Part shown: positions 10,301 through 59,002 of the stretch, one piece after another
How positions within the stretch are numbered: position 1 is the first letter of the stretch
Layout: every line of letters begins with the position of its first letter
Origin: Hyphomicrobium facile
Lineage (GTDB): Bacteria > Pseudomonadota > Alphaproteobacteria > Rhizobiales > Hyphomicrobiaceae
Reading direction: 5' to 3'
Length of the DNA: 64,000 nucleotides
Assembly (NCBI RefSeq): GCF_900116175.1
Contig: NZ_FPCH01000002.1
Span: forward strand, 434,001 to 498,000
Made by a program: the position numbers and the translations under genes
The notes under the pieces: generated by a model
Databases searched by the model: none
What the model was told of the DNA's origin: nothing
The model's input: the letters and a program-made list of their open reading frames with translations, nothing else

Positions 10301-10570
10301 CGTGTAGCTGCCGTCATCGCCACTCACGCTCTTCATGTAGATCATCTTGTCGACGCCGACGACCTGCGCCTCGATGGGCTGCGCGACAGTCGCGTCGACG
10401 ACCGATGAATTAGCGCCGGGGTACGTGGTCGTGACCTGCACCTGCGGCGGAACGATATCGGGATACTGGGCGACCGGTATCGCATATAGAGCGAGCGCAC
10501 CGGCGATTGTGGTGACGATGGCAATGACGATTGCGAGACGGGGACGGTCGACGAAGAGCGCGGAGAGCAT
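7391..10570 (-). CDS. RND multidrug efflux permease (HAE1 family)
   Basis: A 1059-residue inner-membrane proton/drug antiporter of the AcrB/MexF type, full length for the family. An N-terminal helix ([20 protein letters not shown]) is followed by a large periplasmic domain, then TM4 with the proton-relay pair in [16 protein letters not shown] near residue 405, a second periplasmic domain and a second helix bundle. The ATG at 10570 lies 3 bp from the stop of the adaptor gene, so they are surely one operon. No outer-membrane channel gene is nearby; a TolC-type partner must be encoded elsewhere. Substrates cannot be read from the sequence. Confidence 0.93.
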
Positions 10571-24135: not shown

Positions 24136-24163
24136 CGGGCTTTCGGCGTCTGGGGGCTGAGAA

Positions 24164-34900: not shown

Positions 34901-35232
34901 CTGACCTGCTGGCGCGCGAAATAGATATCCGTTCTCTCCGAAAAGATGGCCGTGACCTGAGAGAACCCGTTCCGCGACAGCGACCGCGTGTATTCAAGTC
35001 CGGAAATGCCCGCGAGCGCGGTCTCGATCGAGAAGGTTATCTGCTTCTCGATATCGACCGGTGAGAGCGACGGCGCGATCGTATTGATTTGCACCTGGTT
35101 GTTCGTGATGTCGGGAACGGCGTCGATAGGCAGCTTATCAAGCGAATAGACGCCGTAAGCCGCGGCCGCGAGCGTCAGCATCACGACCAGCCAACGCTGA
35201 TGAACCGAAAAAGAGAGCAGTCGAGCGATCAT
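31981..35232 (-). CDS. czcA: Heavy-metal RND efflux permease (CzcA/CusA family)
   Basis: A 1083-residue HME-RND pump. It starts MIARLLSFSVHQRWLVVML and has LPIDAVPDITNNQVQINT, the family N-terminal signature. TM4 carries DFGLIVDGAVIIVEN near residue 405; the pattern with acidic residues at the two proton-relay positions fits the divalent-metal (Co/Zn/Cd) or Ni subgroup better than Cu/Ag pumps, but the metal is not certain. It follows czcB by 13 bp. No czcC outer-membrane gene is in the window. Confidence 0.93.
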   Translation of the reverse strand: MIARLLSFSVHQRWLVVMLTLAAAAYGVYSLDKLPIDAVPDITNNQVQINTIAPSLSPVDIEKQITFSIETALAGISGLEYTRSLSRNGFSQVTAIFSERTDIYFARQQVSERLREAEKNFPDGITPKLGPISTGLGEIYMWTVQYAPAGSVHVDDGRPGPQSDGSYITPEGQRLTTDVERAAYLRTVQDWIIRPQMITVPGIAGIDVIGGYEKQYVVQPDPARLTALKLSFADIAQALEQNNVNRGAGYVERNGEGFAVLSTGRLTTPEQIANVVVATRGGVAIRIKDVAATGIGREIRTGSASENGQEVVVGTALMLIGGNSRTVAAAVDAKMQDVRQSLPPGVEAQTVLNRTLLVDATVATVSKNLAEGALLVIVVLFLMLGNFRAALITALVIPLAMLLTITGMVQTKISANLMSLGALDFGLIVDGAVIIVENTLRRIAEHQRDLGRKLALEERLQAVIRSAEEMIKPSVYGQAIIILVYVPLLTFTGIEGKMFEPMALTLIIALVAAFALSMTFVPAAIAIALSKRVEEKENIFVRILKRIYEPLLRRAMAKPLFFVVGALGLLVFAGSLFAKLGQEFIPTLDEKNLAMHAIRIPSTSLSQSQQMQLELEKVVSKFPEVAFVYSKTGTAEVASDPMPPNVSDTFIILRPAKEWPDPALGKDALVAKILAGIEKQPGNNLVFSQPIQMRFNELLAGARGDLAVKVFGEEFEPMLRTANQVASILRNTDGATDISVEQVSGLPFLAIAINQDEIARLGLSVLAVQDVIGAAIGGREAGVVFEGDRRYPIIVRLPDGMREDLEKLKHLPVSLPPDGSGKTSSVLLEQVASFAFTEGPNQISRENGKRRVVVTANIRGRDIASVVADAQGKVASEIKLPPGYYISWGGQFENLAAAQKRMMLVVPACFFLIFLLLYSALGSPRDALLVFSAVPLALTGGIIALWLRDMPFSVSAAVGFIALSGVAVLNGLVMMTSINQLVERGVERQKAIFEGAVTRLRPVVMTALVASLGFVPMALSTGTGAEVQKPLATVVIGGLASATILTLLVLPALCARFGSASARKDERDASASALAASSGAAST

Positions 35233-41459: not shown

Positions 41460-41638
41460 GTTTGGCGCTCCTTCAACTGAGGATGCAGCGCACCTGCCCG
41501 CACACCGAAAGTCGAAGCTGCCCAAGTTCACGCACACGCGCAATCGACGAGGATTTAGTTCGTAAATAGGTTCTATACAGTGTGCTGATTATCATATCGG
41601 GCGGCAGCGATGATGCAGCCAAGCGTGGCGGTACTCTT

Positions 41639-44023
41639 ATGCTCAGACGCGATATGAACCACTCGGCGTGTTCTATTCGATGGCGCAGTGCTGCAAGAGC
41701 TTCATGGCTGATCCTGACCTATCTCGCATTGTCGCTGACTGTGAATTTCTGGCTGGAAACGCCTCGATCACATGCGGAAGAGGCGCAGGTGAAACCGACC
41801 GATCCGGTTGCGCATCCCGATTTCGCCGGATCAAACCGATGCGCGCAATGTCATGCAGCCGAGCATAACGACTGGCTTAGCTCGCAACACGCTGTGGCTA
41901 TGCAGGAGGCGACCGAGCAAACTGTGCTTGGACGCTTCGATGGCACTACGTTCAGCAATGAAAATGTCACGAGCAAATTTTACAAAAGTGACGGCAAGTT
42001 TTGGGTCCGGACCGATGGGCCTGACGCGGCACTGGGCGACTTCGAGATCAGCTACACGTTTGGCGTCTGGCCGCTACAGCAGTATCTCATCAAGCTTCCA
42101 GGCGGGCGGTTTCAAGCGCTCGGCATTGCGTGGGATGCGCGATCGAAGGAAGACGGCGGTCAGCGCTGGTTTCATCTCTATCCAGATCGCAAGTTGAAGG
42201 CCGGGGATCCGCTGCATTGGACCGGCATCGATCAAAACTGGAATTACCAGTGTGCGTGGTGCCACTCGACCAACATCAAGAAGAATTACGATCAGACGAG
42301 CGGGAGTTTTCGCACGACCTGGTCCGAGATCAGCGTCGGATGCGAAGCCTGCCACGGTCCCGGCTCGGAGCATGTGGCTTGGGCGACGAGGTCAAACGGA
42401 TGGCAGCAATCCGATCAGCGCGGCAAGGGATTTGCGCAAACCTTCGACGAACGCAAAGGCGTGACGTGGCCAATGGATGCGAGTGGGCAGGCTCACCGCT
42501 CGGCGCCTCGTACATCGGCCAACGAGATTCATGTTTGCGCCGGCTGTCATTCGCGGCGCCAACAGTTCTCGGATGATCCTGGCAGCGTTGGCCGCCTGTT
42601 TGACGCCTTCCGGCCGTCGCTGCTGGAAGACGGGCTCTATCATGTCGACGGCCAGCAGCGCGATGAGGTCTACAATTACGGATCATTTCTCGAGAGTCGC
42701 ATGCATTCCGCAGGCGTCACCTGCTCCGACTGTCATAACCCGCACACGGGCAAGCTTCGCCAAACCGGAAATTCGCTCTGCGGGCAGTGCCATGAGCCTG
42801 AGCGATTTGACGTCAGTGCGCATCATCACCACGCGCCGAATTCAAAGGGCGCTGAATGTGCCGCATGCCATATGCCGGTCACCACATACATGGGCATCGA
42901 TGGCCGCCGTGATCATTCAATCCGCATTCCTCGCCCCGATCGAACGGTGCTGCTCGGAACGCCCAACGCTTGCAATCAATGCCATACGGACAAGAGCGCC
43001 AAGTGGGCCATGGATGCCGTCAAGGCTTGGTATCCTTCGCCGAAACCGGGCTTCCAAGATTTCGCTGAAGCCTTCGATCGTGGCGACTGGGGAGCCCCTG
43101 GCGCTCAACCCGGTTTGATCGGAATTGCAAAAGCGAGCACCGAGGCACCTATCGCACGCGCAAGTGCGATTGCGAGGCTTCGACGATTTCCCTCGCCTCA
43201 GGTCCTGGACTTCGCGGCGAGCTCCTTGAAAATCGATGATCCGCAAATTCGAGCAGCGGCCGTGTCGGTGATTGCCGGGGCGGCCCCCGAGACGCGCCGG
43301 TCTCTACTCGCGCCTTCGCTGAGGGACGAGACGCGCTTGGTTCGTATGGATGCCGCTCGCGCCATTGCCGGAGAAGCGGAACAGAATTTGTCGGCCGATG
43401 ATCGCGCCTCATTCGAGAAGGCGCTCGCCGAATATATCGATGCCCAAATGTTCAATGCGGAACGGCCGGAGTCGCATGCCAATCTCGGTACGCTTTATCG
43501 CGACCGCGGCAAGCTAAGCGACGCCCGAGCCGCGTTCGCAAGGGCGATCGAGATCGATCCAACCTTCGTCCCGGCAGTCATCTCGTTAGCCGAACTGAAG
43601 CGAGGGCAGGACGACGAGATTGGCGCTGAAGCGGTGTTACGCAAATCGCTCGACGGAAATCCCCGTTCCGGCGGGTTGTGGCACGCGCTCGGTCTCAGTC
43701 TCATTCGTCAGAAGCGCCTGCCCGAAGCGATGGCTGCTCTTGCGAAGGCTGCTGAGCTTGCTCCCGAAGATCCGCGCTTCAGCTACGTTTATGGAGTCGC
43801 ACTTCACGATACCGGCAAGCCGCGAGAAGCGGTGGAGGCGCTGAAGAGCGCGCTCACGCGTCACCCGTACGATCGCGATATCTTATGGGCTCTCGCGAAA
43901 TACGAGATCGAGGCCGGCGACGATGCATCGGCACTCGCCCGCGCGGAACTCCTCAATCACCTCGAACCGGAGCGTTCAGATATTGCCCAGCTGCTCGGAG
44001 AGCTGAGGCAACGAACTCGCTAG
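41639..44023 (+). CDS. Octaheme cytochrome c with C-terminal TPR domain
   Basis: A 794-residue exported protein. A hydrophobic signal-anchor segment (WLILTYLALSLTVNFWL) precedes a cytochrome c554-like region with eight CxxCH motifs, at about residues 68, 205, 235, 300, 362, 381, 407 and 445. Then comes a helical HEAT-like segment (about 505-600) and at least three TPR units up to the end (AHANLGTLYRDRGKLSDARAAFARAIEIDP). Family members are found as periplasmic electron-transfer or scaffold proteins; the role here is unknown. Start ATG 41639 is a choice; GTG 41582 or ATG 41654 are possible. It is divergent from the arylsulfatase gene. Confidence 0.9.
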   Translation: MLRRDMNHSACSIRWRSAARASWLILTYLALSLTVNFWLETPRSHAEEAQVKPTDPVAHPDFAGSNRCAQCHAAEHNDWLSSQHAVAMQEATEQTVLGRFDGTTFSNENVTSKFYKSDGKFWVRTDGPDAALGDFEISYTFGVWPLQQYLIKLPGGRFQALGIAWDARSKEDGGQRWFHLYPDRKLKAGDPLHWTGIDQNWNYQCAWCHSTNIKKNYDQTSGSFRTTWSEISVGCEACHGPGSEHVAWATRSNGWQQSDQRGKGFAQTFDERKGVTWPMDASGQAHRSAPRTSANEIHVCAGCHSRRQQFSDDPGSVGRLFDAFRPSLLEDGLYHVDGQQRDEVYNYGSFLESRMHSAGVTCSDCHNPHTGKLRQTGNSLCGQCHEPERFDVSAHHHHAPNSKGAECAACHMPVTTYMGIDGRRDHSIRIPRPDRTVLLGTPNACNQCHTDKSAKWAMDAVKAWYPSPKPGFQDFAEAFDRGDWGAPGAQPGLIGIAKASTEAPIARASAIARLRRFPSPQVLDFAASSLKIDDPQIRAAAVSVIAGAAPETRRSLLAPSLRDETRLVRMDAARAIAGEAEQNLSADDRASFEKALAEYIDAQMFNAERPESHANLGTLYRDRGKLSDARAAFARAIEIDPTFVPAVISLAELKRGQDDEIGAEAVLRKSLDGNPRSGGLWHALGLSLIRQKRLPEAMAALAKAAELAPEDPRFSYVYGVALHDTGKPREAVEALKSALTRHPYDRDILWALAKYEIEAGDDASALARAELLNHLEPERSDIAQLLGELRQRTR

Positions 44024-46140: not shown

Positions 46141-47451
46141 ATGGCCGTTAGACCCAGAAGCGCCGTCGCATCGGCTCTGGCGGTTGCAATGAGGGACTTC
46201 GGACTCGGTTCACAAACGGTTCTGAAGATCGGCATCCTCGCTCCGCTGACAGGACCACTCAAAGCGTGGGCATTGCCGGGATTCAACGGCAGTCTCATTT
46301 GGGTCGAGCGGATCAACGCTGCCGGGGGCCTGAAGGTCGGCAGCCGGAAATACAAGCTCGAACTCATCCAGTTCGACACCAACTATCAGCCTGACCTGGC
46401 GCTTCAAGGCGCACGGAAGCTGATCATGGAGGATGGCGTGAAGCTCATCCTCATGATCGGCGGCAACGACCTGACGGCTGAAGTCAGACGGCTCATCAGC
46501 CAGCATCGCATGCTCGTCGCGACGCTTCTGCCGAGCGACCTGTCGCCGGACGTGCCGACGCTCGTTGCACCGAGCGAAGTCCATCCAATCTACAACGTGA
46601 CTGGCGTCGAGTGGCTGAGGCGGAAACATCCGGAACTCAAGACGGCGGCGTTGTGCGCGCAGCGCGATCTTCTCGGCCTGCCGTCCATCGCGACCTACAG
46701 AGCGGCATTCGAAGCAGCCGGCATCGAGCTTGTCGCCGAGCGCGTATTCGAACCGGAAACGAGCGATTTCGGGCCGATCGTCGACGAACTTATGGCGAAG
46801 AAGCCGGACATCCTCTGTTGGGATACGGCGTACGAGCCCTTTGTGCATTCGCTTACGATCGAAGCATTCAAACGCGGCTTCCGCGGCCGCCTTCTGTCCT
46901 GCACGTGCGACAACTATCCGGAGCTCATCCGGCGCACGAGCGTCGAATTCATGGAAGGCTTCGTCTTCCAGTTTCCGGATTTCGACGATCCTCGCCTCAA
47001 CGATGGCCATACGAACTTCGAAGATCCCGGCAAATTCTACGAGGAGTTCTGCCGCCGCTTCCCTGGAACATGGAGCGCGGTGTCGTGGGAATACGCCTCG
47101 ACGCTGGAACTTTGGAAATCAGCCGTGCAGCGCGCGCGGACGTTCGAGCCGTTCTCCGTTCTCGCGGCGATGAAGGTCGGCGGCATCGGTCCGCACGCTT
47201 TCGGCGAAGCCAGATGGTGGGGAAAAGATCTGTTCGGGATCGACAATGCGCTCGTCGGAGAATGGCCCGTCGTCGCGATCGTCGACGGCAAGGCGCGAAT
47301 TCAGGAGTTCGGCTCGATCGCGGACTGGTGGTCGAAACACCGGTCGATCCTCGTCAAGCACATGCGATCAATGAACCTGATGTGGGATCAGCGCGAACAC
47401 CTCGCCGCTTCCGCCGAGACACTCGATCGTTTGACGGCTCAAGACTCGTAG
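46141..47451 (+). CDS. Type 1 binding-protein-fold protein without signal peptide
   Basis: A 436-residue protein of the branched-chain amino acid/amide-binding family (Peripla_BP_6-like): VLKIGILAPLTGPLKAWALPGFNGSLIWVERINAAGG is the classic opening, followed by ILMIGGNDLTAEVRRLISQHRMLVATLLP. Unlike transporter subunits it has no signal peptide: an in-frame TAA lies 12 bp before ATG 46141, and the first 25 residues carry no hydrophobic core. It may thus be a cytoplasmic ligand sensor, as AmiC is for amides. No ABC permease or ATPase genes accompany it. Its stop overlaps the convergent GntR gene by 13 bp, which ties it to the amine cluster. Confidence 0.82.
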   Translation: MAVRPRSAVASALAVAMRDFGLGSQTVLKIGILAPLTGPLKAWALPGFNGSLIWVERINAAGGLKVGSRKYKLELIQFDTNYQPDLALQGARKLIMEDGVKLILMIGGNDLTAEVRRLISQHRMLVATLLPSDLSPDVPTLVAPSEVHPIYNVTGVEWLRRKHPELKTAALCAQRDLLGLPSIATYRAAFEAAGIELVAERVFEPETSDFGPIVDELMAKKPDILCWDTAYEPFVHSLTIEAFKRGFRGRLLSCTCDNYPELIRRTSVEFMEGFVFQFPDFDDPRLNDGHTNFEDPGKFYEEFCRRFPGTWSAVSWEYASTLELWKSAVQRARTFEPFSVLAAMKVGGIGPHAFGEARWWGKDLFGIDNALVGEWPVVAIVDGKARIQEFGSIADWWSKHRSILVKHMRSMNLMWDQREHLAASAETLDRLTAQDS

Positions 47452-48209
47452 ATCATGTCCTCGTGGGCGTTGGCGAAGTAGAGCCTGATGATCTCTACGG
47501 CGGTCTCCACGTTTCGCCTCTCGATGGCATCATAAAGCGACCTGAACATCAGCTGGATGCTCTTGATTTTCGCCGGCGTCAGTGCCTGCTGGCGGGCCGA
47601 CGCCCATTGCGGATGGCGCCGCACCTCGTGCAGAATTGCGTACATCGCGACGATCAGCGAGTTATGCGTGCCGCGGGCGATGGCCATCATGAATTCCTCT
47701 TCCAACATCGCGAACGTGTCGGATTCGGTGACGATCGCTTCGAGTTGGATGAGCTGATTTTGAAGATCGGCGACATCTCGCGCCGACATGTAAATGGTCG
47801 CGAGGCGCGTCATCTCAGGCGCCAGGATGGAACTCGCGATATTCATCGCGAACGGCGACGCGGTCTCGACGAGCTGGTCGACGGCGGGAAACGACGAGGT
47901 GCGCTCATCCCTGCCGTCGTGAGACGAGCGCTTTCGTTGATATGAAACGAAGGTGCCGCTTCCCGGACGGCGGGCGACGATCCCGTATGTGGCCAAGAAC
48001 TCGAGCGCCTGGCGTATCGTCGCCCGGCTGTCGCCGAATGCATCGGCCAAGTCCCGCTCGGCCGGAATTCGCGTTCCGAACGGATATTCCCCCGACGCGA
48101 AGCGGGCGAACAGGCGTGTGGCGATCTCCTTCACCCGCGGCGTGACGAGCGGATGGCGCGTGACATCGTCGATCCAGGGAGGCGCTTCAAAGTCGTAAGT
48201 GTCAGACAT
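47439..48209 (-). CDS. GntR-family regulator, FadR subfamily
   Basis: A 256-residue regulator. The winged HTH is at about 25-88 (RVKEIATRLFARFASGEYPFGTRIPAERDLADAFGDSRATIRQALEFLATYGIV), and the C-terminal FCD domain supplies a helical ligand pocket (TLESDTFAMLEEEFMMAIARGTHN-type region). It most likely controls the methylated-amine genes. The unknown 302-residue protein gene lies 14 bp upstream on the same strand; the binding-protein gene converges on it. Confidence 0.88.
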   Translation of the reverse strand: MSDTYDFEAPPWIDDVTRHPLVTPRVKEIATRLFARFASGEYPFGTRIPAERDLADAFGDSRATIRQALEFLATYGIVARRPGSGTFVSYQRKRSSHDGRDERTSSFPAVDQLVETASPFAMNIASSILAPEMTRLATIYMSARDVADLQNQLIQLEAIVTESDTFAMLEEEFMMAIARGTHNSLIVAMYAILHEVRRHPQWASARQQALTPAKIKSIQLMFRSLYDAIERRNVETAVEIIRLYFANAHEDMIYES

Positions 48210-48223
48210 GATTTCAGCTCAAG

Positions 48224-49132
48224 CTAATGTGGCATTCCAATTTCAGAGCGGGCCTTTTCGGTTTTCCGCAGATGACGAACTGCAGAAAATGTCTGGGGCC
48301 CAAGCAGTGCGGTGAGCGCGACGGCGGCTTCCAAAGTCGCGCAATCCTCGGAGAGAGCAGTCGAAAGCGTGTTCTGGCGATGGGCGAAATCTGCAGCTTT
48401 CGCTGCGTAGCTCGAAAAGACAGATGCATCCGTTGCCGGCTCAGCAGGCGTCGCAAGCAGGCGAACTTCGGGTGAGCCCGGACCCAGGATGTCCTTGAGC
48501 ATCGCCGTCAGGTCGCGCGCCTGAAGAGTCACGCTTTCGGATGCCGGATCACCGGCATCGACAATGAGAAGATTGAAGCGGGTGATGGCGAGCGCTGCTT
48601 CCGCGAGCTGACGATATCTCTGGCGGCGCGGTTCGATCAGCGCGTGCGGGACCTTCGTTGCGAGGCGGAAGTGAAACGAGGTCGCGCCTGTCATCGGGAC
48701 GTCAAGCGTTGCGATGCCGGCGATAACCAGCCGCCAACCCTCCTCCGCTGTGCGAAAGGCGTGGCGTGCTTCGTGTGCGTTGCCGAGAATGATGTGCGCG
48801 ACGCCGGCGTTCGAACGGCTTGCAGCGAGCAATGGCGCCGGAGACGGGGCGCCCTCGGCAATCGCCGCCGCGCGAATCCACAAGCGCGCAGCATCATCGA
48901 TCTGTACGCGTGCCATTGCCGCGAAGGCATGCAGGCTCTGATCCGTCCAAGTCCCAATCTCAGCCACGCGCGCCTGCAATTCCGATTTATGAGGCAATTG
49001 CCAATCCCCAATTGGGAAAAAAGATGCCTCTCTCTCAACCAGAATGCAACCGGATTCAACCAATGCAAGCCAATATAGGTTCGCACCTGCGATATCGCGT
49101 CTAACTGCGTTTAATATCGATGAAATCTGCAT
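48224..49132 (-). CDS. Hypothetical protein, cotranscribed with GntR regulator
   Basis: A 302-residue, Ala-rich, mostly helical protein without signal peptide. I recognise no family. AASRSNAGVAHIILGNAHEARHAFRTAEEGW could be a degenerate TPR-like pair, and the rest alternates short helices. It reads into the GntR gene after 14 bp, so the two share a transcript. A palindrome covers its start codon. Its product could take part in regulation or in amine metabolism; nothing in the sequence decides this. Confidence 0.7.
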   Translation of the reverse strand: MQISSILNAVRRDIAGANLYWLALVESGCILVEREASFFPIGDWQLPHKSELQARVAEIGTWTDQSLHAFAAMARVQIDDAARLWIRAAAIAEGAPSPAPLLAASRSNAGVAHIILGNAHEARHAFRTAEEGWRLVIAGIATLDVPMTGATSFHFRLATKVPHALIEPRRQRYRQLAEAALAITRFNLLIVDAGDPASESVTLQARDLTAMLKDILGPGSPEVRLLATPAEPATDASVFSSYAAKAADFAHRQNTLSTALSEDCATLEAAVALTALLGPQTFSAVRHLRKTEKARSEIGMPH

Positions 49133-49149
49133 TTCGTGCCTGCGAAATG
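49130..49149. promoter_or_regulatory. Palindrome over the start of the 48224-49132 gene
   Basis: CATTTCG and CGAAATG are separated by TGCCTG: a perfect 7-bp inverted repeat of 20 bp in total. The minus-strand ATG of the unknown gene lies inside it. It is a reasonable operator for the GntR protein encoded downstream, giving autoregulation, and lies in the divergent region that also serves the permease gene. Confidence 0.45.
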
Positions 49150-49240
49150 ATCAGCGTAGTTTCTTTTTGGTGACTTTTTTGACTTGCGGGTAATTCGCCA
49201 CCCCGTAACATGGTCACGTTGGGCTAATTGCGGTAATTAC

Positions 49241-49257
49241 TGGTTTAAATTGGTTTA
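49241..49257 (+). promoter_or_regulatory. Direct repeat TGGTTTA in the permease promoter region
   Basis: TGGTTTA occurs at 49241-49247 and again at 49251-49257, exactly 10 bp (one helical turn) apart, with GGTAATTAC just before. It lies about 155 bp before the permease start, in the region that must drive the amine cluster. Confidence 0.35.
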
Positions 49258-49409
49258 TGTCGCAAAATCATCTGGTTGCGTCACGCCAATGCCGGGCCCG
49301 ACGGGGGATCGTGCTTTTTGCTTCACGCGGCAGCGCCGCTTGTGCGCCTAGCTCGGGGATCGATTGCTGCACGAAGTTTTATCAATGAGCAGGCTCAGCT
49401 GGAGCGATC

Positions 49410-51203
49410 ATGGCCATAGATACTGGAGTGCATACTTCGGGCAGCGCGTTTAGCGCGTCGTCCGGCAAACTCGTCCGAGCTATCGACTGGAGAGGAGCGT
49501 TTTGGGTCGCCAGCGGCGTCCCGGCCCTTGTCCTGTTTTCCATCGGAGGCATCGCGGGCGTAGCGGGAAAAGTTGCCTTTCTCGTCTGGTTCGTCTCGAT
49601 GCTCATGGGGCTCATCCAGTCCTTCACATACGCGGAAATAGCCGGCCTCTTCCCGAACAAATCGGGCGGCGCCTCGGTCTATGGCGCAGCGGCATGGGTG
49701 AGATATTCCAAGCTGATCGCGCCGTTGTCCGTCTGGTGCAACTGGTTCGCGTGGTCGCCCGTGCTCTCGCTGGGGTGCTCGATCGCAGCCGCGTATATTC
49801 TTAATTCACTGGCAGCCGTCCCACCGGCTGACGCGCCGCAAGTCGCCGCCTGGGTCAGTGCTCATGCCGCGTCGATCCCGCTCGATTCTCCTCGCGTCGC
49901 CGAGTGGATCGCGGCGAACCAGGGCAAGACGGCAGCGGACGCAGTCGCGGCACTCCTTTCAACGGATGCCATCGCCGCGCTGACGCCGGAGATCCGCAAT
50001 TGGTCCCTCTTCCACGGGACTCTCGGGCCCGTGTCGTTCTCGTTCAACGCCGCGTTCTTCATCGGCGCGGTGCTCATGCTGATCACGTTCGCCATTCAGC
50101 ACCGAGGGATTCTCGGCACCGCCAGCGTTCAAAAGTATATTGGGCTCGCGGTGATCATACCGATGTTCATCGTCGGCGTCGTGCCAATCCTCACGGGCCA
50201 GATCAACTGGTCGAACTTCACGCCGCTCGAACCGCTCAAAGCCGCCTATGCTCCAGAAATGGGCCATTGGGATATCCCGGGCTGGACACTCATTCTCGGC
50301 GCCATGTTCATCGCCGCGTGGTCCACGTATGGATTTGAAACGGCGATTTGCTACACGAGCGAATTCCGTGATCCGGGCCGCGATACGTTCAAGGCGATCT
50401 TCTATTCGGGCCTGCTTTGCCTCGTGCTCTTCACGCTCGTGCCCTTCACCTTCCAAGGGGTTTTGGGTCTCGAGGGTATGCTCGAGCCATCGATTGTCGA
50501 TGGTTCCGGCGTTGCGGCGGCCATGGCCAACATGGTCGGCCACGGTGGAATGCTCACGAGCCTGCTCGTCATGCTCATGATCCTGGCGCTCATGTTGTGT
50601 CTGATGACCGCGATGGCCGGATCATCGCGCACCCTATACCAGGGCTCGCGCGATGGCTGGCTGCCGCGCTACCTCAGTCACGTTAATGAACATGGTGCAC
50701 CGACGCGCGCGATGTGGACCGATCTCGTGATCAACCTTGCGGTCCTCGCGATCGCCTGCGCCGACGCCACGAGCTTCTTCTTCATCCTCGCCGTTTCGAA
50801 CTGCGGTTACATCATCTTCAACTTCCTGAACCTCAATTCAGGTTGGATCCACCGCATCGATAACGCCGGCGTCCATCGTCCGTGGCGCGCACCGGGCTTC
50901 GTGCTCGCCATCGGCGCGGTGTTCGCGTTCGTCAATGCCGTCTTCATGGGCGCGGGAGCGAAGGTCTGGAACCCCGTCGCATTGTGGGCCGGGCTGTTCA
51001 CCGCCTCGCTGATTATTCCGGTGTTCTGCTTCCGCCATTACGTGCAGGATAAAGGCGTCTTTCCTGCCCACATGCTGGAGGATCTCGGACTGACGCAGAG
51101 CGACTTGAAGACGCGGAAGGCCGGGGTGCTTCCCTATCTCGTTCTCGCCGCTGGCTTGCTCGTCGTCCTGGTGTCGAACTGGTTCTTCCAGCTGCCTGCC
51201 TAG
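49410..51203 (+). CDS. APC-superfamily permease, likely methylated-amine uptake
   Basis: A 597-residue membrane protein with about 12 helices of the amino acid/polyamine/organocation family: WVASGVPALVLFSIGGIAGVAGK opens TM1, followed by SFTYAEIAGLFPNKSGGASVY, the conserved substrate loop, then STYGFETAICYTSEF. A hydrophilic insert at about 135-200 sits between early helices. As the first plus-strand gene of the amine cluster, it is the natural candidate to import TMA, TMAO or dimethylamine; this is inferred from context only. It starts 100 bp before dmmA, in the same direction. Confidence 0.88.
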   Translation: MAIDTGVHTSGSAFSASSGKLVRAIDWRGAFWVASGVPALVLFSIGGIAGVAGKVAFLVWFVSMLMGLIQSFTYAEIAGLFPNKSGGASVYGAAAWVRYSKLIAPLSVWCNWFAWSPVLSLGCSIAAAYILNSLAAVPPADAPQVAAWVSAHAASIPLDSPRVAEWIAANQGKTAADAVAALLSTDAIAALTPEIRNWSLFHGTLGPVSFSFNAAFFIGAVLMLITFAIQHRGILGTASVQKYIGLAVIIPMFIVGVVPILTGQINWSNFTPLEPLKAAYAPEMGHWDIPGWTLILGAMFIAAWSTYGFETAICYTSEFRDPGRDTFKAIFYSGLLCLVLFTLVPFTFQGVLGLEGMLEPSIVDGSGVAAAMANMVGHGGMLTSLLVMLMILALMLCLMTAMAGSSRTLYQGSRDGWLPRYLSHVNEHGAPTRAMWTDLVINLAVLAIACADATSFFFILAVSNCGYIIFNFLNLNSGWIHRIDNAGVHRPWRAPGFVLAIGAVFAFVNAVFMGAGAKVWNPVALWAGLFTASLIIPVFCFRHYVQDKGVFPAHMLEDLGLTQSDLKTRKAGVLPYLVLAAGLLVVLVSNWFFQLPA

Positions 51204-51304
51204 ACAAATTGCAGGTCGGGGCGGTTTCCTCCGCCGCTCCGATCTGCTCTGATCACTTTCCGCAGGTCCCAGGCATTCGGCCTGACGGATTTAGGGAGCA
51301 ATTA

Positions 51305-51907
51305 ATGACGGTAAGCACTATCAAAAGCCGGCCTATCTATCCGGGTCTCAGCCCGGATCTCAATGCGCGACGCAATATCATCGTCTGCGACAAAGCGGGT
51401 GCGGCGGCGGTCGCCGAGTTGTTTTCGCGCGCCGGCAGCGCCTTTGCGGAGCGGGCGACCATCATTCTGGCGGACAGCCTGTCTGCTACCGAGACCCAAA
51501 CGCTCAGTCGCGATCTTGCGCCGGCTGCGGTCGAAATTCAGCCAACTCTTGCCGACGGCATCGCGCGTCTGCGCCAACTCCTTGAAACTGCGCCCATGGG
51601 CTTGCGCCTTTACGCTGCCGGTTCCGAACCTCTCATCGGTCTCGTCGTGCAGGCGGGCCTCGATTTCTCAATCGATCACTTGTCGATCCGGACCGAGCAT
51701 CGCGGCTCTCTCAAGCGGCGCGTTCAATGCGTCCATTGCAAGACGTTCATCGAGGACGTCACGACGAACCCGGTGAAATGCACTGGTTGCGGGCTCACGC
51801 TGCTGGTCAGAGATCACTATTCCCGCCGCCTCGCCGCCTTCCAGGGCGTATGCATCGACGCGGAAGTCCCCGGCGAAGTTCCTCCGACGGAGGCCTTGTA
51901 CCTATGA
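51305..51907 (+). CDS. dmmA: Dimethylamine monooxygenase subunit DmmA-like
   Basis: A 200-residue protein of the DmmA family, found beside the reductase and heme subunits of dimethylamine monooxygenase. The C-terminal domain holds four cysteines in two CxxC pairs (C142-x2-C145 and C159-x2-C162) with YSRRLAAFQGVCIDAE behind them, probably a zinc or iron site. The N-terminal half resembles a nucleotide- or flavin-binding reductase fragment (RLYAAGSEPLIGLV). ATG 51305 has AGGGAGC upstream. Its stop overlaps the next start (ATGA). Letter assignment of dmm subunits varies between reports. Confidence 0.75.
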   Translation: MTVSTIKSRPIYPGLSPDLNARRNIIVCDKAGAAAVAELFSRAGSAFAERATIILADSLSATETQTLSRDLAPAAVEIQPTLADGIARLRQLLETAPMGLRLYAAGSEPLIGLVVQAGLDFSIDHLSIRTEHRGSLKRRVQCVHCKTFIEDVTTNPVKCTGCGLTLLVRDHYSRRLAAFQGVCIDAEVPGEVPPTEALYL

Positions 51908-52866
51908 GCGGAAATCTTTTACGGCGCGTTCGGGTCGCCGAGGTGGAACGTGTGGCGAACCGCATCAAGCGCTTTCGCCTAGTCGACGCCGATAACGCTC
52001 CGCTGTCGGAGTTTTCCGGCGGATCTCACATTTCTGTCGTCATGCACGCGGGCGACCGTCTCTTGCGTAATCCCTACTCTCTCATGGGAGCGCCCTCAGA
52101 TACGTCGAGCTATCAAATCAGCGTTTTGAACGTCGAGGATTCCCGCGGCGGCTCGAAGTTCATGCATGAGAACGTCTCCGTCGGCACGGAACTCGAGATC
52201 GGGCAGCCGCTCAATCTCTTTCCGCCGGCCAAGCTTGCGAAGAAGCATGTGCTGGTTGCGGGCGGCATCGGCATAACGCCTTTCATGTCGATGATGAACG
52301 AACTCGACGGGCTGCATTCGGACTTCGAGCTGCACTACGGCGTTCGCTCGCTCGAAGACGGCGCCTACTGCAAGTATCTGCAATCACGCTACGGATCGCG
52401 CGTGAATATCTATCGCCAGGACCAGGGTCAGCTGATCCCGCTCGAGCGCATTCTGGGCGACCAGCGGCTCGGCACGCATATGTACGTCTGCGGGCCAAAG
52501 CCAATGATCGACTGGTCATTGCAGACAGCAAAGCTGCTCGGCTGGCCCGACGAAAACGTGCACTCCGAACAATTCAGCGCTCCACCTCCGGGTAAGCAGT
52601 TCCTCGTGAAGTTGGCGCGGTCGGGCCGCGAGGTCATCGTTCGCGGCCACCAAAGCATTCTCGAAGCACTCGAAGAGAATGGGGTCGACGCGCCGTTCCT
52701 TTGTCGCGGCGGCGCTTGCGGTCAATGCGAAACGCAGGTCGTCGCGTGCGACGGCTTCATCGAGCACAACGACCATTTTCTCACCGAGCCCGAGCGCGTG
52801 AGCGGCAAGAAGATCATGATCTGCATGTCTCGCATTCAAACAGGATCGATCACTCTCGATCTCTAA
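51904..52866 (+). CDS. dmmB: Dimethylamine monooxygenase reductase (PDR/VanB family)
   Basis: A 320-residue flavoprotein that passes electrons from NAD(P)H to the heme subunit. The flavin domain has RNPYSLMGAP; the NAD domain has VAGGIGITPFMSMM and YVCGPKPMI; the C-terminal plant-type [2Fe-2S] site is C267-x4-C272-x2-C275-x31-C307 (CRGGACGQC). The order flavin, NAD, ferredoxin is that of phthalate dioxygenase reductase. Its ATG overlaps the dmmA stop by 4 bp, a sign of coupled translation. Confidence 0.88.
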   Translation: MSGNLLRRVRVAEVERVANRIKRFRLVDADNAPLSEFSGGSHISVVMHAGDRLLRNPYSLMGAPSDTSSYQISVLNVEDSRGGSKFMHENVSVGTELEIGQPLNLFPPAKLAKKHVLVAGGIGITPFMSMMNELDGLHSDFELHYGVRSLEDGAYCKYLQSRYGSRVNIYRQDQGQLIPLERILGDQRLGTHMYVCGPKPMIDWSLQTAKLLGWPDENVHSEQFSAPPPGKQFLVKLARSGREVIVRGHQSILEALEENGVDAPFLCRGGACGQCETQVVACDGFIEHNDHFLTEPERVSGKKIMICMSRIQTGSITLDL

Positions 52867-52903
52867 AGAACAATTCAAAAATTCCTATCCGGGAGATCAT
52901 GGT

Positions 52904-53944
52904 ATGGGACTGACATTTAGAAACGAGACTTTTCGCGACGACTTCACGTACACGAATAGTCCTTCCAACATCCGGCGGTTTCCGTTTCCTTTCGTCGAGG
53001 ATCAGTACCGCTATTCGGTCAACATCGAACCGCACACGCCGGGTCCGAAGGGGTCTCCCTTTGAATACCACTTCGATGTCGACGAGCACTACGTTTCGGA
53101 AATGCGCGATCGTGCGATGGTTCTCGCCGCAGATCCGCTGCGTTGCCAAGCTCTGCCGCACATGATGACGGCGCAGTGGGACATGCTCGAGCTGCTCATG
53201 ACATCGCTTGCGCGCGATTATCCCGAGCACTTCACGCTCCATCGCGACGGCTCGGCGTGGCATTGGATCAATCGGCCGCTCGGCATCGACCAGAAGTTCA
53301 CGTTCCTCGATGCGAGCACGCTGCCCTACCAGCCGATGGAATTCATCGGCCGTCAAGTGCAGGGCGATTTCTCGATCCAGGACCAACGCGACAACCAGCT
53401 CTGGATGGATGCGGGCATCATCACGTCACAAGCCGACTGGTCGCTCGATTTCGACGTCGGCATGAACTTCTTCGAATGGCACGGGCCGGTACCGCTCGCG
53501 CACGAGGCCGGCGTTTTCGAGCGCGCTTTGAAATTTCTTCTCAATCTGCAGATCGGCAAACCGGTTCGCCGCCTGAACTGGACGATGACGATCAATCCGC
53601 GTCTCGATACGAGCCCTGAGAACTATCACAAATGGGCCAGCGATCGCATGACGGTGACGCCGGAGAATGTCGGCAAGAAAGTGCATCTGCGCGTCGAGAT
53701 GCAGGGCCTCTTCAGGCTGCCCCGATCGAACGCAATCCTGTTCTCGATCCGCGGCTATCTAATGAGCTTCGAGCAGATCGTTACGGTGCCGAAATGGGGG
53801 CGCCGCCTGCCGCGCGTTCTCGCTTCGCTGCCGCCTGAACTCGTCGAGTACAAAAGCCTCGGCCGCTACCGCGACATGGCACTTGCATACCTTGCACCAT
53901 ACGACGACGGCGCTCCGACCTCACCTGGCGGAGGTCCCGACTAA
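52904..53944 (+). CDS. dmmC: Heme-dependent oxidative N-demethylase (dimethylamine monooxygenase)
   Basis: A 346-residue protein of the DUF3445 family, the heme-binding catalytic subunit that oxidises dimethylamine with O2 to methylamine and formaldehyde. Typical sequence: RRFPFPFVEDQYRYSVNIEP, EHYVSEMRDRAMVLAADPLRCQALP, NRPLGIDQKFTF, and FRLPRSNAILFSIRGYLMSFEQI. ATG 52904 follows GGGAG. It sits 37 bp behind the reductase gene and 65 bp before the GcvT-like gene, all in one direction. Function follows from the family and the intact cluster. Confidence 0.85.
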   Translation: MGLTFRNETFRDDFTYTNSPSNIRRFPFPFVEDQYRYSVNIEPHTPGPKGSPFEYHFDVDEHYVSEMRDRAMVLAADPLRCQALPHMMTAQWDMLELLMTSLARDYPEHFTLHRDGSAWHWINRPLGIDQKFTFLDASTLPYQPMEFIGRQVQGDFSIQDQRDNQLWMDAGIITSQADWSLDFDVGMNFFEWHGPVPLAHEAGVFERALKFLLNLQIGKPVRRLNWTMTINPRLDTSPENYHKWASDRMTVTPENVGKKVHLRVEMQGLFRLPRSNAILFSIRGYLMSFEQIVTVPKWGRRLPRVLASLPPELVEYKSLGRYRDMALAYLAPYDDGAPTSPGGGPD

Positions 53945-54009
53945 GAGAACCGAGTTGAAGAAAAACCCCAAGGCAGAAGCGATCAAAAAACAAGCAAGAG
54001 GTAGCTCTC

Positions 54010-55137
54010 ATGTCCCTAGCCGATTTGCCACGTCAGTCCATTCTCAACGATCGCCATCGGGCGAACGGCGGGGATCTCGAATCCGTGTCGTGGAACAACA
54101 TGCCGCTTCCGCAAACGTACGCGACGGATCCCTATGTGGAAGTCGAAGCCGTTCGTTGCCGGGCGGGGCTCTTTGACGTCTCGTCGCTGCAGTTGCTGAA
54201 CGTGTCGGGTCCAGACGCGGAGAAGCTGCTCAATTACGTGCTGACCTCCGACATCTCCAAAGCCAAGCCGGGCGACTCGCATATTTCCAATATCGTCAAT
54301 GAAAATGGCGGGTTGATCGACGACGTTCTCATCTACGTCGACAGCCCGACCGAGTACCGGCTTTCACACGGAGCTGGAAAGCTCGAAGAGGCAATCCGCG
54401 CACTCGCACCGAAGTACGACGTCAAAGTCGAGCGGGATGACGATGTGCACGTTCTCGCTTTGCAGGGGCCGCTTTCGCTCGAAATCCTCGCGCCGCATAC
54501 GCCGATGAACCTCGCCGGGCTCGGCTACTTCAAGCACGGAACGTCGACGCTGTTCGGAACGCCGGTGCGTCTCGCTCGCGGCGGCTATTCGGCCGAGCTC
54601 GGATATGAAGTTTTCTGCGCCGCCAAGGACGCGCACAAGATGTGGGACTCGATCCTCGCTGCCGGCAAGGACAAGGGCCTCATCCCGGTGTCGTGGGCAT
54701 GTCTCGACATCGTGCGCGTTGAAGGTGGCTTGTTGTTCTTCCCGTGCGAGATGACGAATGAAGATACGACGCCTTGGGAAGTGAAGGCCGACTGGACTGT
54801 CGATCTTTCGAAGCCGGATTTCATCGGCAAGAAGGCGCTCGTCGAGAAGAAGGGCAAGGAACGCAATTTCGTTGCAGGCCTTGAAATCGATCACACGAAG
54901 GCCATCGCGCCCGGCTCCAAGATCACGGCGAACGGCAAGCAAGTCGGCGTCATCACCAGCACGACCTACAGCAAGCATCTCATGAAATCGATTGCCTTGG
55001 CGCAGATCGAACCCGCTTACACCAAGCTCGGCACCGAACTCGTCGTTCATGACGGCGGCGACTGGCCGGCGACCGTGGTGCGGATGCCGTTTTACGATCC
55101 TCTGCGCCTTCGCACGCATCCCCGCGACAAAGCCTGA
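54010..55137 (+). CDS. dmmD: GcvT-family aminomethyltransferase (DmmD-like)
   Basis: A 375-residue GcvT protein, full length for the family: YVEVEAVRCRAGLFDVSSLQ, NENGGLIDDVLIY, and a C-terminal barrel with KHLMKSIALAQIEP. It binds tetrahydrofolate and probably catches the formaldehyde released from dimethylamine as methylene-THF. The set of heme subunit, reductase, DmmA and GcvT protein is the known dmm unit. It starts with ATG 54010 (AGAGG upstream) and lies 58 bp before tmm. The fold is shared with the C-terminal half of Tdm in this cluster. Confidence 0.82.
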   Translation: MSLADLPRQSILNDRHRANGGDLESVSWNNMPLPQTYATDPYVEVEAVRCRAGLFDVSSLQLLNVSGPDAEKLLNYVLTSDISKAKPGDSHISNIVNENGGLIDDVLIYVDSPTEYRLSHGAGKLEEAIRALAPKYDVKVERDDDVHVLALQGPLSLEILAPHTPMNLAGLGYFKHGTSTLFGTPVRLARGGYSAELGYEVFCAAKDAHKMWDSILAAGKDKGLIPVSWACLDIVRVEGGLLFFPCEMTNEDTTPWEVKADWTVDLSKPDFIGKKALVEKKGKERNFVAGLEIDHTKAIAPGSKITANGKQVGVITSTTYSKHLMKSIALAQIEPAYTKLGTELVVHDGGDWPATVVRMPFYDPLRLRTHPRDKA

Positions 55138-55195
55138 TCCACCTACCTACGCAGTCAGAAAATCCTAGCGAATTGATTTTTCGGAAGGACACCAA

Positions 55196-56557
55196 ATGGC
55201 AGAGCGAATAGCTATTATCGGCGCCGGCCCGAGCGGTATGGCGGTTTTGCGCGCGTTCGAGAGTGCCCGGCGCAAGGGCGCGGATATCCCCGAGATGGTC
55301 TGCTACGAGCGGCAGAAGGATTGCGGGGGTATTTGGAATTATACGTGGCGCACCGGAACGGATGAGTTCGGCGAGCCGGTTCACGCAAGCATGTATCGCT
55401 ATCTTTGGTCGAACGGACCGAAGGAATGCTTGGAGTTCGCCGACTACTCATTCGAAGAGCACTTCGGACGTCCGATACCGTCGTTTCCGCCGCGGGCCGT
55501 GCTGCACGACTACATCAAAGGCCGCATCGAACGCAGCGGCATCATGCACTACATCAAGCTCAGCACCGCGGTTCGCAACGTCACCTTCAACGAAGAGACG
55601 CAAAAGTTCACCGTCACGGTGAAGGATCTCGTCGCCGATACGCTCACATCATCGGAATTCGACTACGTCTTCTGCGGCAGCGGCCATTTCTCGACGCCGA
55701 ACATTCCGGAATTCCCCGGTCTCACCCACTTCCTTGGGCGCACGTTGCATTCGCACGACTTCCGCTCGGCTGACGAGTTCGCGGGCAAGGACGTTCTTTG
55801 CGTCGGCGCGAGCTACTCGTCGGAAGACATCGGCATTCAGTGCCACAAATATGGCGCCAAGTCCGTCACGTTCTCGTGGCGCACGAGGCCGATGGGCTTC
55901 AAATGGCCCGCCCGCATGGACGAAGTTCCCTTGCTCGAGCGCGTCGAAGGCAAGACCGCCATCTTCAAGGATGGCACGAAGAAGGACGTCGACGCGATCA
56001 TTCTGTGCACGGGATATCTGCATCACCATCCGTTCATGGAAGACTCGCTGCGCCTCAAGTCGCGCAACCGGCTCTATCCGCCGAACCTCTACAAGGGCAT
56101 CTTCTGGATCGACAATCCGAAGCTGATGTACATCGGCATGCAGGATCAGTTCTATACATTCAACATGTTCGACGCGCAGGCTTGGTATGCGCGCGACGTC
56201 GTACTCGGACGCATCAAGTTGCCATCGAAGTCGGATATGTTCGACGACATCCAGAAGTGGACCGAGATGGAAGAAGCGATCCCGGATGCTTCAGGCGCGA
56301 TCGACTTCCAGACGGAATATATGCGCGATCTTCTCGCTCCAACCGACTACCCGCGCCTCGACGTCGACGCCGTCGCGAAGATGTTCAAGGACTGGGAGCA
56401 TCACAAGATGGATGACATCCTGACCTATCGCGACCGTTCGCACAAATCGGTGCTGACCGGCACGCTGGCACCAGTCCACCATACGCCTTGGATGAAGGCG
56501 GCCGACGACTCGATGGAGGCGTTCCTCAATCAGCCGAGCAGGGTAGCTGCGGAGTAG
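55196..56557 (+). CDS. tmm: Trimethylamine monooxygenase (bacterial FMO)
   Basis: A 453-residue FAD enzyme that oxidises trimethylamine to TMAO with NADPH and O2. FAD site GAGPSG is at 9-14; the FMO fingerprint FLGRTLHSHDF lies near 180; NADPH-site CVGASYSSEDIG follows at about 200. IIRYRLWSNGPKE-type and YKGIFWIDNPKLMYIGMQDQFYTFNMFDAQAW sequences are characteristic of Tmm rather than Baeyer-Villiger enzymes. Length equals known Tmm proteins (about 450). A strong hairpin lies between it and tdm. With tdm and dmm it makes a complete route from TMA to methylamine. Confidence 0.93.
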   Translation: MAERIAIIGAGPSGMAVLRAFESARRKGADIPEMVCYERQKDCGGIWNYTWRTGTDEFGEPVHASMYRYLWSNGPKECLEFADYSFEEHFGRPIPSFPPRAVLHDYIKGRIERSGIMHYIKLSTAVRNVTFNEETQKFTVTVKDLVADTLTSSEFDYVFCGSGHFSTPNIPEFPGLTHFLGRTLHSHDFRSADEFAGKDVLCVGASYSSEDIGIQCHKYGAKSVTFSWRTRPMGFKWPARMDEVPLLERVEGKTAIFKDGTKKDVDAIILCTGYLHHHPFMEDSLRLKSRNRLYPPNLYKGIFWIDNPKLMYIGMQDQFYTFNMFDAQAWYARDVVLGRIKLPSKSDMFDDIQKWTEMEEAIPDASGAIDFQTEYMRDLLAPTDYPRLDVDAVAKMFKDWEHHKMDDILTYRDRSHKSVLTGTLAPVHHTPWMKAADDSMEAFLNQPSRVAAE

Positions 56558-56584
56558 CGGGTCTCTCCCCTCAAGAAGCAAATC

Positions 56585-56614
56585 GTGGATTGGCCGCATA
56601 TGCGGCCAGTCCAC
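56585..56614. terminator. Large hairpin between tmm and tdm
   Basis: A near-perfect palindrome: GTGGA, T-G wobble, then TGGCCGCATATGCGGCCA and TCCAC, giving a stem of about 13 bp. No T-run follows. It could limit read-through into tdm, protect the tmm mRNA, or shape ribosome access. Confidence 0.55.
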
Positions 56615-56650
56615 ATCTGAGGTCATGCTCTTTAGCGAAATGAGGACAAG

Positions 56651-59002
56651 ATGAGCGAAACTGTTCTGACGTCCCCCGCGCGCCCGAAACTTTTCGTTCC
56701 AGGACAATCTTCGCTGGCGCCCGGCGTCGAGCGCTACGTCCTCAAAGGCGGCGGCACGGCCGTCTTCGAACTCGACAAGGGTGATCGCGTCGAACTCAGT
56801 CCGCTCGAAGGCGGACAGGGCGTGGAAATCGCGGCGTTCGCGCCGGGAGGCAAAAGCGATCTCGAGGCGCTCGGTCTCAAAGGACGCGGCAAGCCTACGG
56901 GCATTCAGCGGGCTCTCGGAGCCGACAGCGAAGACGCGCAACGCGTTCGCTTCGGATTGTTCAGGAGGGGTCTCGATATCGGTGGCGTGAAAGCTGCGAG
57001 CGTGCTCGGGCCGGATTGCGTTCCGGGCGATGTCGTTTCGCTAGATGTTGAACGGTCCGTTCTCGCCGTCTTCGGTGCGCCCGCCGAGCCCATGATCGTA
57101 TGGGAGCAGACGCCGGCGACCGACATTCTGGTCTTCATTCTGCGAGCCAATCCGCGGCTTCTGAACGAAGCGAAGCTGCCGGAGCCGATCGCCGAGCCGC
57201 GTCTCGACATCCGCATCAATATCTCGAGCGCCGAAAGCTTCGAAGTTCACGAAGGCGAGTACATCCAGATCATCGATGTGGCCGGGCGGCAGTGCTCGGA
57301 CTTCCTGGCCTTCAACCGCCGCGCCCTCGATCGCGGCGAAGTCTTGGGGCTCGACTCGACGACGACACGGTCAATGATCGGCGCCGCTTATCCGAAGCCC
57401 GGCCTCTATTCGAAATTCTTCGACAGGGATCGCAATCCGCTCGTCGAAATCGTGCAGGATACGGTTGGGCGCCACGATACGTTCAATCTGGCATGCACGA
57501 CGCGCTATTACGAGGACATGGGCTACTTCGGCCATCCAAACTGCACCGACAATTTCAACGATGCACTCAAGGATTATCCCATCGGCAGCTACAAGGGCTG
57601 GCCGGCGATCAACTTCTTCTTCAACACCAACGTCGACTGCCACAACAACATCTGGTCGGACGAACCGTGGTCGCGTCCCGGCGACTACGTGATGATGCGC
57701 GCGCTGACGGATCTCGTCTGCGGCACATCATCGTGTCCGTCCGACATTGACGCCTCCAACGGGTGGAACCTGACCGAGATACACGTTCGGGTTTATCCGA
57801 AAGACACATCCTTCAAGCGCTCGATCGGATATAGAATGGCACCGGATGCTCCACTTCAGCTGACAAGAGAATCGGGATTTCACCCGCGCACGTCGGCCCT
57901 CACCCGCAACTTCGGTGAATACCGGAATTTCTGGGTGCCTCACTGCTATTCGAACGCAGGCGCCATAGATGAGTATTGGGCGTGCCGCGAAGGCGCGGTC
58001 ATCATGGACCTCTCGCCTTTGCGGAAGATGGAAGTACTGGGGCCGGACGCCGAGCAGTTCCTGCAAGGCATCATCACGCGCGACGTTCGCAAGCTGGCCG
58101 TCGGCCAAATCTACTATACGCCGATGTGCTATGAGCACGGCGGGATGGTGGACGATGGAACGCTATTCCGGCTTGCCGAAAATAATTTCCGCTGGATCGG
58201 CGGCGACGATGCGAGCCTCATCTGGCTTAAAGAGCAGCTCGCCAAAACCAACTACAAAGTGAACCTCAAGACGGCGACATCCGAACTCAACAACGTTGCC
58301 GTTCAGGGTCCGAAGTCGCGGGAGATTCTTCAGAAGATCATCGAGACGCCGCCTGGCCGGCCGACGATGCAGGAACTCGGCCTATTCCGCTTCACGATCG
58401 GGCGCATCGGCGGCGTTGCAGGCATTCCGGTTCTCGTCTCGCGGACGGGATATACGGGCGAGCTCGGATTCGAAATCTTCTGCCATCCGAAGGACGCGCC
58501 TGGCGTGTGGGATGCTGTCATGGCTGCGGGCGAGCCGTTCGGCATTCAACCGTTCGGGTTCGATGCGCTCGACATGGTTCGCATCGAGGCTGGGCTCGTC
58601 TTTGGCGGTCACGATTTCGATTCAACGACAGATCCGCTCGAAGCCGGCATCGGCTTTACGGTGCCGCAGAAAAAGGAAGAGGACTACATTGGCAAGGCCG
58701 CGATCGAGAAGCGGCGCGCCAATCCGCTCCGGAAGCTCGTGGGCCTCGAAATCCAGGGCAACGAAAAACCCGCGCACGGCGATCCGGTGTTCGTCGGCCG
58801 CGCGCAGGTCGGCGCTGTGACAAGCGCGATGCGCTCGCCGCTTCTTAAAAAAACGCTTGCGTTCGCGCGGGTGGACGTCACGCATTCGGCGACGGGGACC
58901 GCGCTTGAGATCGGACGTCTCGACGGACTACAGAAGCGTTTCAAGGCAACGGTCGTGCCGTTTCCGTTCTACGATCCGGAGAAGAAGCGCGTTAAAATGT
59001 AA
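56651..59002 (+). CDS. tdm: TMAO demethylase (Tdm)
   Basis: A 783-residue two-domain enzyme that splits TMAO into dimethylamine and formaldehyde without net redox change. The N-terminal part (to about 370) contains the DUF1989-like metal domain with QCSDFLAFNRR, DCHNNIWSDEPWSRPGDYVM and CGTSSCPSD, which hold the metal-binding Cys and acidic residues. The C-terminal part (about 395-783) is a GcvT domain (GVWDAVMAAGEPFGIQPFGFDALDMVRIEAGL) that transfers the formaldehyde to tetrahydrofolate. Architecture and length match known Tdm. It follows tmm by 93 bp and ends the amine unit, with tandem hairpins behind it. Confidence 0.93.
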   Translation: MSETVLTSPARPKLFVPGQSSLAPGVERYVLKGGGTAVFELDKGDRVELSPLEGGQGVEIAAFAPGGKSDLEALGLKGRGKPTGIQRALGADSEDAQRVRFGLFRRGLDIGGVKAASVLGPDCVPGDVVSLDVERSVLAVFGAPAEPMIVWEQTPATDILVFILRANPRLLNEAKLPEPIAEPRLDIRINISSAESFEVHEGEYIQIIDVAGRQCSDFLAFNRRALDRGEVLGLDSTTTRSMIGAAYPKPGLYSKFFDRDRNPLVEIVQDTVGRHDTFNLACTTRYYEDMGYFGHPNCTDNFNDALKDYPIGSYKGWPAINFFFNTNVDCHNNIWSDEPWSRPGDYVMMRALTDLVCGTSSCPSDIDASNGWNLTEIHVRVYPKDTSFKRSIGYRMAPDAPLQLTRESGFHPRTSALTRNFGEYRNFWVPHCYSNAGAIDEYWACREGAVIMDLSPLRKMEVLGPDAEQFLQGIITRDVRKLAVGQIYYTPMCYEHGGMVDDGTLFRLAENNFRWIGGDDASLIWLKEQLAKTNYKVNLKTATSELNNVAVQGPKSREILQKIIETPPGRPTMQELGLFRFTIGRIGGVAGIPVLVSRTGYTGELGFEIFCHPKDAPGVWDAVMAAGEPFGIQPFGFDALDMVRIEAGLVFGGHDFDSTTDPLEAGIGFTVPQKKEEDYIGKAAIEKRRANPLRKLVGLEIQGNEKPAHGDPVFVGRAQVGAVTSAMRSPLLKKTLAFARVDVTHSATGTALEIGRLDGLQKRFKATVVPFPFYDPEKKRVKM

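Follow-up and report, generated by a model that had tools for sequence, protein, structure and literature searches.

A candidate cytoplasmic binding-protein sensor paired with a GntR/FCD regulator at a methylated-amine operon of Hyphomicrobium facile

A stretch of 64,000 nucleotides from Hyphomicrobium facile (assembly GCF_900116175.1, contig NZ_FPCH01000002.1, forward-strand positions 434,001 to 498,000; the window) carries an operon for aerobic trimethylamine (TMA) oxidation, tmoP-dmmABCD-tmm-tdm, preceded by the genes of a solute-binding protein of the ATP-binding cassette (ABC) transporter type (SBP), a GntR/FCD regulator and a helical protein, P302. The SBP was found to lack an export signal, and we consider it probable that it serves as a cytoplasmic sensor which acts on the GntR/FCD repressor and so controls the operon. 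Methylated amines supply the nitrogen and trace-gas cycles, and their sensing by bacteria is only now emerging; the protein beside tmoR has so far been annotated as periplasmic or left without an assigned function, and its lost export signal suggests a testable role.

According to the proposed mechanism, the SBP lineage would have lost its twin-arginine translocation (Tat) signal once and remained in the cytoplasm, where the protein would bind a methylated amine, most likely dimethylamine (DMA) or trimethylamine N-oxide (TMAO). Its ligand state would be passed to a TmoR-like GntR/FCD repressor, and the upstream module would thereby relieve repression of the divergent tmoP-dmm-tmm-tdm operon. 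P302, encoded beside the repressor, would be a third, fast-evolving partner. The operon itself, with the TMAO permease gene first, would provide the route from TMA through TMAO and DMA to methylamine.

Export signal, descent and selection of the binding protein

The SBP gene (46141-47451, + strand) encodes a Peripla_BP_6 protein (Pfam E value 3.3e-40). Its open frame comprises 439 aa, of which 436 are coded, and a stop occurs three codons before the start, leaving no space for a hidden upstream signal; a search of the genome for a second SBP copy returned none. Genome contigs were scanned for SBP relatives, and of the 415 obtained the best 80 loci were retrieved. Tat signals were scored by motif search and by eye, and matches with fewer than 330 aligned residues were excluded from the count. 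In the de-duplicated rows the signal was present in 36 of 36 SBPs linked to ABC genes and in 0 of 52 linked to a GntR gene (one N-terminus uninspected), the other rows being divided into 3 with and 11 without it. Before de-duplication the signal was counted in 42 of 42 ABC-linked rows and, with the motif as sole criterion, in 2 of 69 GntR-linked ones. A second collection of 25 loci, in part shared with the first, showed a Tat signal in 14 of 14 cases with ABC genes and in 0 of 11 without them. L064 and L123 were scored as Tat by the motif and reset by eye to no signal, since the arginine pair falls beyond the N-terminal start or within a frame that was extended too far; the N-termini of L114 and L131 showed no such pair, and L156, the uninspected one, was counted as signal-less.

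A tree of 102 rows, calculated with the 'quick' method after removal of the N-terminus, placed the 63 signal-less rows in one clade with a support of 99, and one change on this tree explains the distribution of the signal. Near-copies (more than 80% shared 5-mers), rows shorter than 330 aa and L051-L070 except six were excluded from the tree set, and several long branches were flagged, the longest being L156. With two distant Tat rows as outgroup, the change corresponds to a single loss of the Tat signal. Six positions differ between the two groups at 85% or more within each group; among these, W227 occurs in 62 of 62 signal-less proteins against leucine in 36 of 37 Tat proteins, and P233 in 62 of 62 against aspartate in 37 of 37. 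The signal-less clade spans several alphaproteobacterial families.

The SBP is under purifying selection, with a ratio of nonsynonymous to synonymous polymorphism (pN/pS) of 0.09-0.27 compared with 0.06-0.23 for tmoP in the same four comparisons. Its structural model (mean predicted local distance difference test score, pLDDT, 86.5, with low confidence at residues 1-24) adopts the type I binding-protein fold; in a Foldseek search urea-binding proteins ranked high, and AmiC (1qnl) appeared at rank 37 with an E value of 3.1e-17.

Genes of the signal-less clade mostly stand tail to tail with a GntR gene. The sister proteins of the clade carry the Tat signal and their genes are followed by BPD_transp_2 permease genes. 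The Leisingera locus L122 (9953-15180) and similar Roseobacter-type loci encode a Tat SBP together with a P302 relative and a pair each of BPD_transp_2 permeases and ATPases; judged by gene content, such ABC sets, which adjoin tmm and dmm, are a candidate uncharacterised importer for methylated amines.

The conserved unit upstream of tmoP

The GntR/FCD gene (47439-48209, - strand; Pfam E values 3.1e-16 for GntR and 1.9e-13 for FCD), TmoR-like by context, converges on the SBP gene with an overlap of 13 bp. Gene order was compared in a set of 94 loci, from which nine duplicate loci had been removed and in which near-copies such as L118/L119 were kept. This set contains 63 convergent SBP-GntR pairs; the P302 gene stands immediately upstream of GntR in 25, and on the divergent side, within 2.6 kb, the first gene that was recognised is tmoP in 24 cases and tmm and dmmA in one case each. 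Strain G019 has two SBP-GntR pairs, one before tmoP-tmm-tdm (L068) and the other before tmoP-dmmABCD (L066). The SBP, GntR/FCD and P302 genes form a conserved unit. An original prediction made from the window alone had placed a GntR regulator, an unknown protein and a binding-protein-fold protein upstream of the permease and proposed that they constitute a sensor module; all three were found there, and the module is borne out by the signal-less clade and the conserved pairing, its sensory role remaining putative.

P302, encoded on the same strand as GntR (-), was listed as an open reading frame (ORF) of 302 aa at 48224-49132. The first 55 or so codons of that frame are conserved non-coding DNA interrupted by stops in relatives, which moves the true start to near 48967, about 165 bases inside, and gives a protein of about 247 aa (48224-48967); the full 302-aa reading was ruled out by these stops in the aligned DNA. 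No Pfam or NCBIfam match was obtained for P302, and comparison of its sequence with the PDB gave a single match at chance level. Its model consists of 11 helices (pLDDT 93.9), and a fold search returned a best E value of 0.023, none at or below 0.001, with tetratricopeptide repeat (TPR) proteins heading the list, a weak likeness. The protein evolves fast (pN/pS 0.33-0.66). Of 69 P302 genes, 33 have a GntR gene and 34 an ATPase gene no more than 450 bp away, one of them having both. A search of 297 genomes of the order detected the SBP in 19 and P302 in 17, every one of the latter among the SBP genomes by a cut made after the fact: the P302 profile matched 29 genomes, and 12 whose short matches cover the TPR part were set aside once the list had been viewed; four of these 12, from one genus, have the match in short ORFs and could be distant kin.

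The gap between P302 and tmoP (48968-49409) is a divergent control region whose roughly 440 bp upstream of P302 are conserved in close relatives, as seen in a DNA alignment of six sequences. It contains the palindrome TCGCA-NN-TGCGA (49081-49092), a candidate operator about 330 bp before tmoP that has a variable centre. The palindrome has one match in the window, where 0.23 are expected by chance and at least one match occurred in 19 of 100 shuffles; in 28 de-duplicated upstream regions it is exact in 10 and has one mismatch in 5. Taken alone it is a weak candidate. The longer form GTTCGCANNTGCGA has a sole other site in the genome (C3:200415), which by eye is surrounded by cytochrome P450-like and nucleoside diphosphate kinase-like ORFs and no methylamine genes. 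A sigma54-type promoter before P302 was rejected for its wrong spacing, judged by eye on the alignment, and scans for promoters (1 found, 3.8 expected in shuffles) and terminators (13 found, 12.4 expected) were uninformative.

Comparison with known systems and alternative explanations

TmoR, a GntR protein, has been reported to repress tmm and to respond primarily to DMA and to a minor extent to TMAO (PMC13390433, 2026). In the parts of that article available to us, the role of DMA is deduced from mutant transcripts, no other protein is invoked, and a gene of unknown function is said usually to lie between tmm and tmoR; in the same neighbourhood an uncharacterized HAAT-family periplasmic binding protein has been labelled (PMC4744692, in part). 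The comparison of relatives, rather than of SPO1552 itself, suggests that this gene of unknown function encodes the signal-less SBP. The window GntR protein matches TmoR in family, and in 16 relatives the regulator gene stands near tmm with one gene in between; in the window it is divergent from tmoP. In these 16 loci the gene between tmm and the GntR/FCD gene is that of the signal-less SBP. The window cluster shares this pairing, and homologues of Tmm, Tdm and Dmm, with the Ruegeria pomeroyi and Roseobacter TMA cluster, which has TmoR and TmoXWV. In loci of the Roseobacter type a further, Tat-bearing SBP with ABC genes and P302 is often present, whereas the window cluster has no ABC genes and tmoP heads its operon.

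AmiC has a cytoplasmic role and AmiR is an antiterminator. In this system the type I binding-protein fold is used as a regulator (PDB 1qnl, 1pea, 1qo0), and AmiC resembles the window SBP in fold alone, with an identity of 17-18%. NasS, a nitrate sensor and a precedent for the lost signal, is a binding-protein homologue without signal peptide and is likewise encoded beside its regulator NasT (PMC5424462, in part); however, NasT is an ANTAR antiterminator, while the regulator of the window cluster is a GntR/FCD protein. As the SBP is accompanied by a GntR and FCD protein and by no ANTAR antiterminator, it is not a member of the AmiC/NasS systems. No sensor role for the signal-less SBP was found in the open-licence papers searched; the control module is of a kind not described in that literature, and the proposed coupling to GntR sets it apart from NasS. 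If the proposal is true, a transport protein has come to sense the ligand for a GntR repressor, and the principle of AmiC and NasS extends to the largest bacterial repressor families.

A broader version of the proposal, plausible to us though it falls somewhat short of probable, is that a former Tat-exported ABC binding protein was captured once in the Alphaproteobacteria and, as a further design of intracellular sensor, forms a methylated-amine switch with the GntR/FCD repressor and, in some lineages, with P302 as a TPR-like adaptor, and that this explains the DMA response of TmoR. Such a switch would extend from soil methylotrophs to marine roseobacters.

Several observations weigh against the sensor proposal. 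FCD domains commonly bind ligands themselves, so that the SBP may be dispensable for sensing. The targets of AmiC and NasS are antiterminators and not GntR proteins, and the AmiC fold match is no stronger than those of many exported binding proteins. The TmoR-like label is given by context, the sequence of SPO1553 lying outside the comparison. In the 94 loci nine GntR-like genes have no convergent SBP, and the number of pairs is conditional on the SBP, since most of these loci were located through it. Of the 28 upstream regions, 18 lack an exact copy of the palindrome, and 13 of these have nothing closer than two mismatches. Finally, tmm occurs in 58 of the 297 genomes and the SBP is missing from 48 of these and present in 10; among the 19 SBP genomes tmm was found in 10 and tdm in 11. 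These counts rule out a module strictly tied to tmm, and tmm clusters without the module must be controlled otherwise.

The strongest alternative, possible in our view but clearly less likely than the sensor proposal, is that the GntR/FCD protein senses DMA or TMAO alone and that the SBP performs some other cytoplasmic task, such as holding methylated amines or handing them to Tmm or Tdm. The FCD effector domain is present, the effector of TmoR was deduced in PMC13390433, as far as available, with the regulator alone, and the convergent adjacency may reflect nothing beyond shared use. However, the SBP accompanies the regulator at loci with no tmm or tdm in the operon (L062, L064, L065, L066), and in G019 each of two operons has its own pair. 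Export of the SBP by an unrecognised route, to serve a transporter encoded elsewhere, for instance in the periplasm with TmoP or an ABC system, appears very unlikely: its sister proteins are Tat-exported ABC binding proteins and the available part of PMC4744692 calls such a tmoR neighbour periplasmic, yet none of the 51 inspected regulator-linked rows has an N-terminal signal, and the upstream stop and the single genomic copy argue against it in the window. That the gene is a functionless relic of a lost ABC operon, as the ABC genes found with the sister proteins and missing at the window locus might suggest, is scarcely credible, decay being ruled out by a pN/pS of 0.09-0.27, near that of tmoP, and the signal-less proteins forming one old clade across several families.

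The methylated-amine operon, its permease and neighbouring genes

Pathway and permease genes were assigned by Pfam and NCBIfam profile matches, the latter read against curated cut-offs. All lie on the + strand: tmoP, of the APC-type TMAO permease family (49410-51203; AA_permease_2; NF053774, 892.3 bits, cut-off 690); dmmA (51305-51907; DmmA-like_N/_C; NF041259, 108.6 bits, cut-off 60); dmmB, a reductase (51904-52866; Fer2 and NAD_binding_1), which overlaps dmmA at an ATGA and whose start, like that of dmmA, was set by eye; dmmC, a heme subunit (52904-53944; HODM_asu-like, E value 1.6e-70); dmmD, a folate-binding GcvT protein (54010-55137; GCV_T, E value 3.2e-62); tmm, trimethylamine monooxygenase (55196-56557; NF058570, 808.9 bits, cut-off 675); and tdm, TMAO demethylase (56651-59002; NF053776, 1204.7 bits, cut-off 1100). 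Tmm, Tdm and DmmABC, the aerobic TMA oxidation pathway, are thus encoded together, and as these enzymes are those of the known pathway the metabolic half of the cluster is not new. The original prediction of a tmm, tdm and dmm set running in one direction behind an APC permease agreed with these assignments in gene content, order and strands. It had also made conservation of the order from the permease to dmmA a point to be checked, and that order is unbroken in most Hyphomicrobium-type loci: among 34 tmoP genes in the 94 loci, the gene 3' of tmoP is dmmA in 22, dmmD in 2, tmm in 2 and none of these in 8, and the four loci without dmmABC at this position have dmmD or tmm there instead.

A scan of 20 ORFs from 38711 to 63905 revealed no ABC permease or ATPase, and hence no TmoXWV in the cluster. 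The further claim that this ABC transporter is replaced by an APC protein holds for the cluster; at another site of the genome an ABC system of the ChoXWV/ProXWV type stands beside another TmoP-family gene. The APC arrangement has already been described: the TMAO permease TmoP was reported in Methylocella silvestris in 2014 (PMC5520151; PMC4543880, both in part), whose cluster has the same enzyme genes, tmm, tdm, dmmABC and dmmD, and the same APC permease family, and the NCBIfam equivalog NF053774, 'trimethylamine N-oxide permease', is named after that organism. The match to this model and the 2014 work rule out a novel transporter.

Three further TmoP-family paralogues in the window's genome (G000) exceed the NF053774 cut-off, with 845.8, 812.5 and 857.3 bits, and the name of the model thus leaves the substrate of each unsettled. 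The first of these scores belongs to the gene beside the ABC system (L071, 3911-10147, contig C3), the permease and ATPase of which exceed choline/betaine-type cut-offs; similar ABC genes occur near the SBP locus in L108 and L132, so that the system may be TmoXWV-like. The two other genes lie on contig C4 (L073, 7288-10367; L072, 9238-14908). One paralogue adjoins a type III glutamate-ammonia ligase (GmaS-like) gene and one has a glutamine-amidotransferase-like gene at a distance of about 3 kb, a setting in which the TmoP family may be spread across several methylated-amine steps.

A second tmm of the same genome (803.6 bits) was found outside the window at C4:320729-322054. Elsewhere in the window, three very long minus-strand ORFs occur at 7391-10570, 20941-24264 and 31981-35232 (1059, 1107 and 1083 aa), and an ORF of 813 aa at 41582-44023 has matches of the multiheme cytochrome c type and, after these, TPR repeats.

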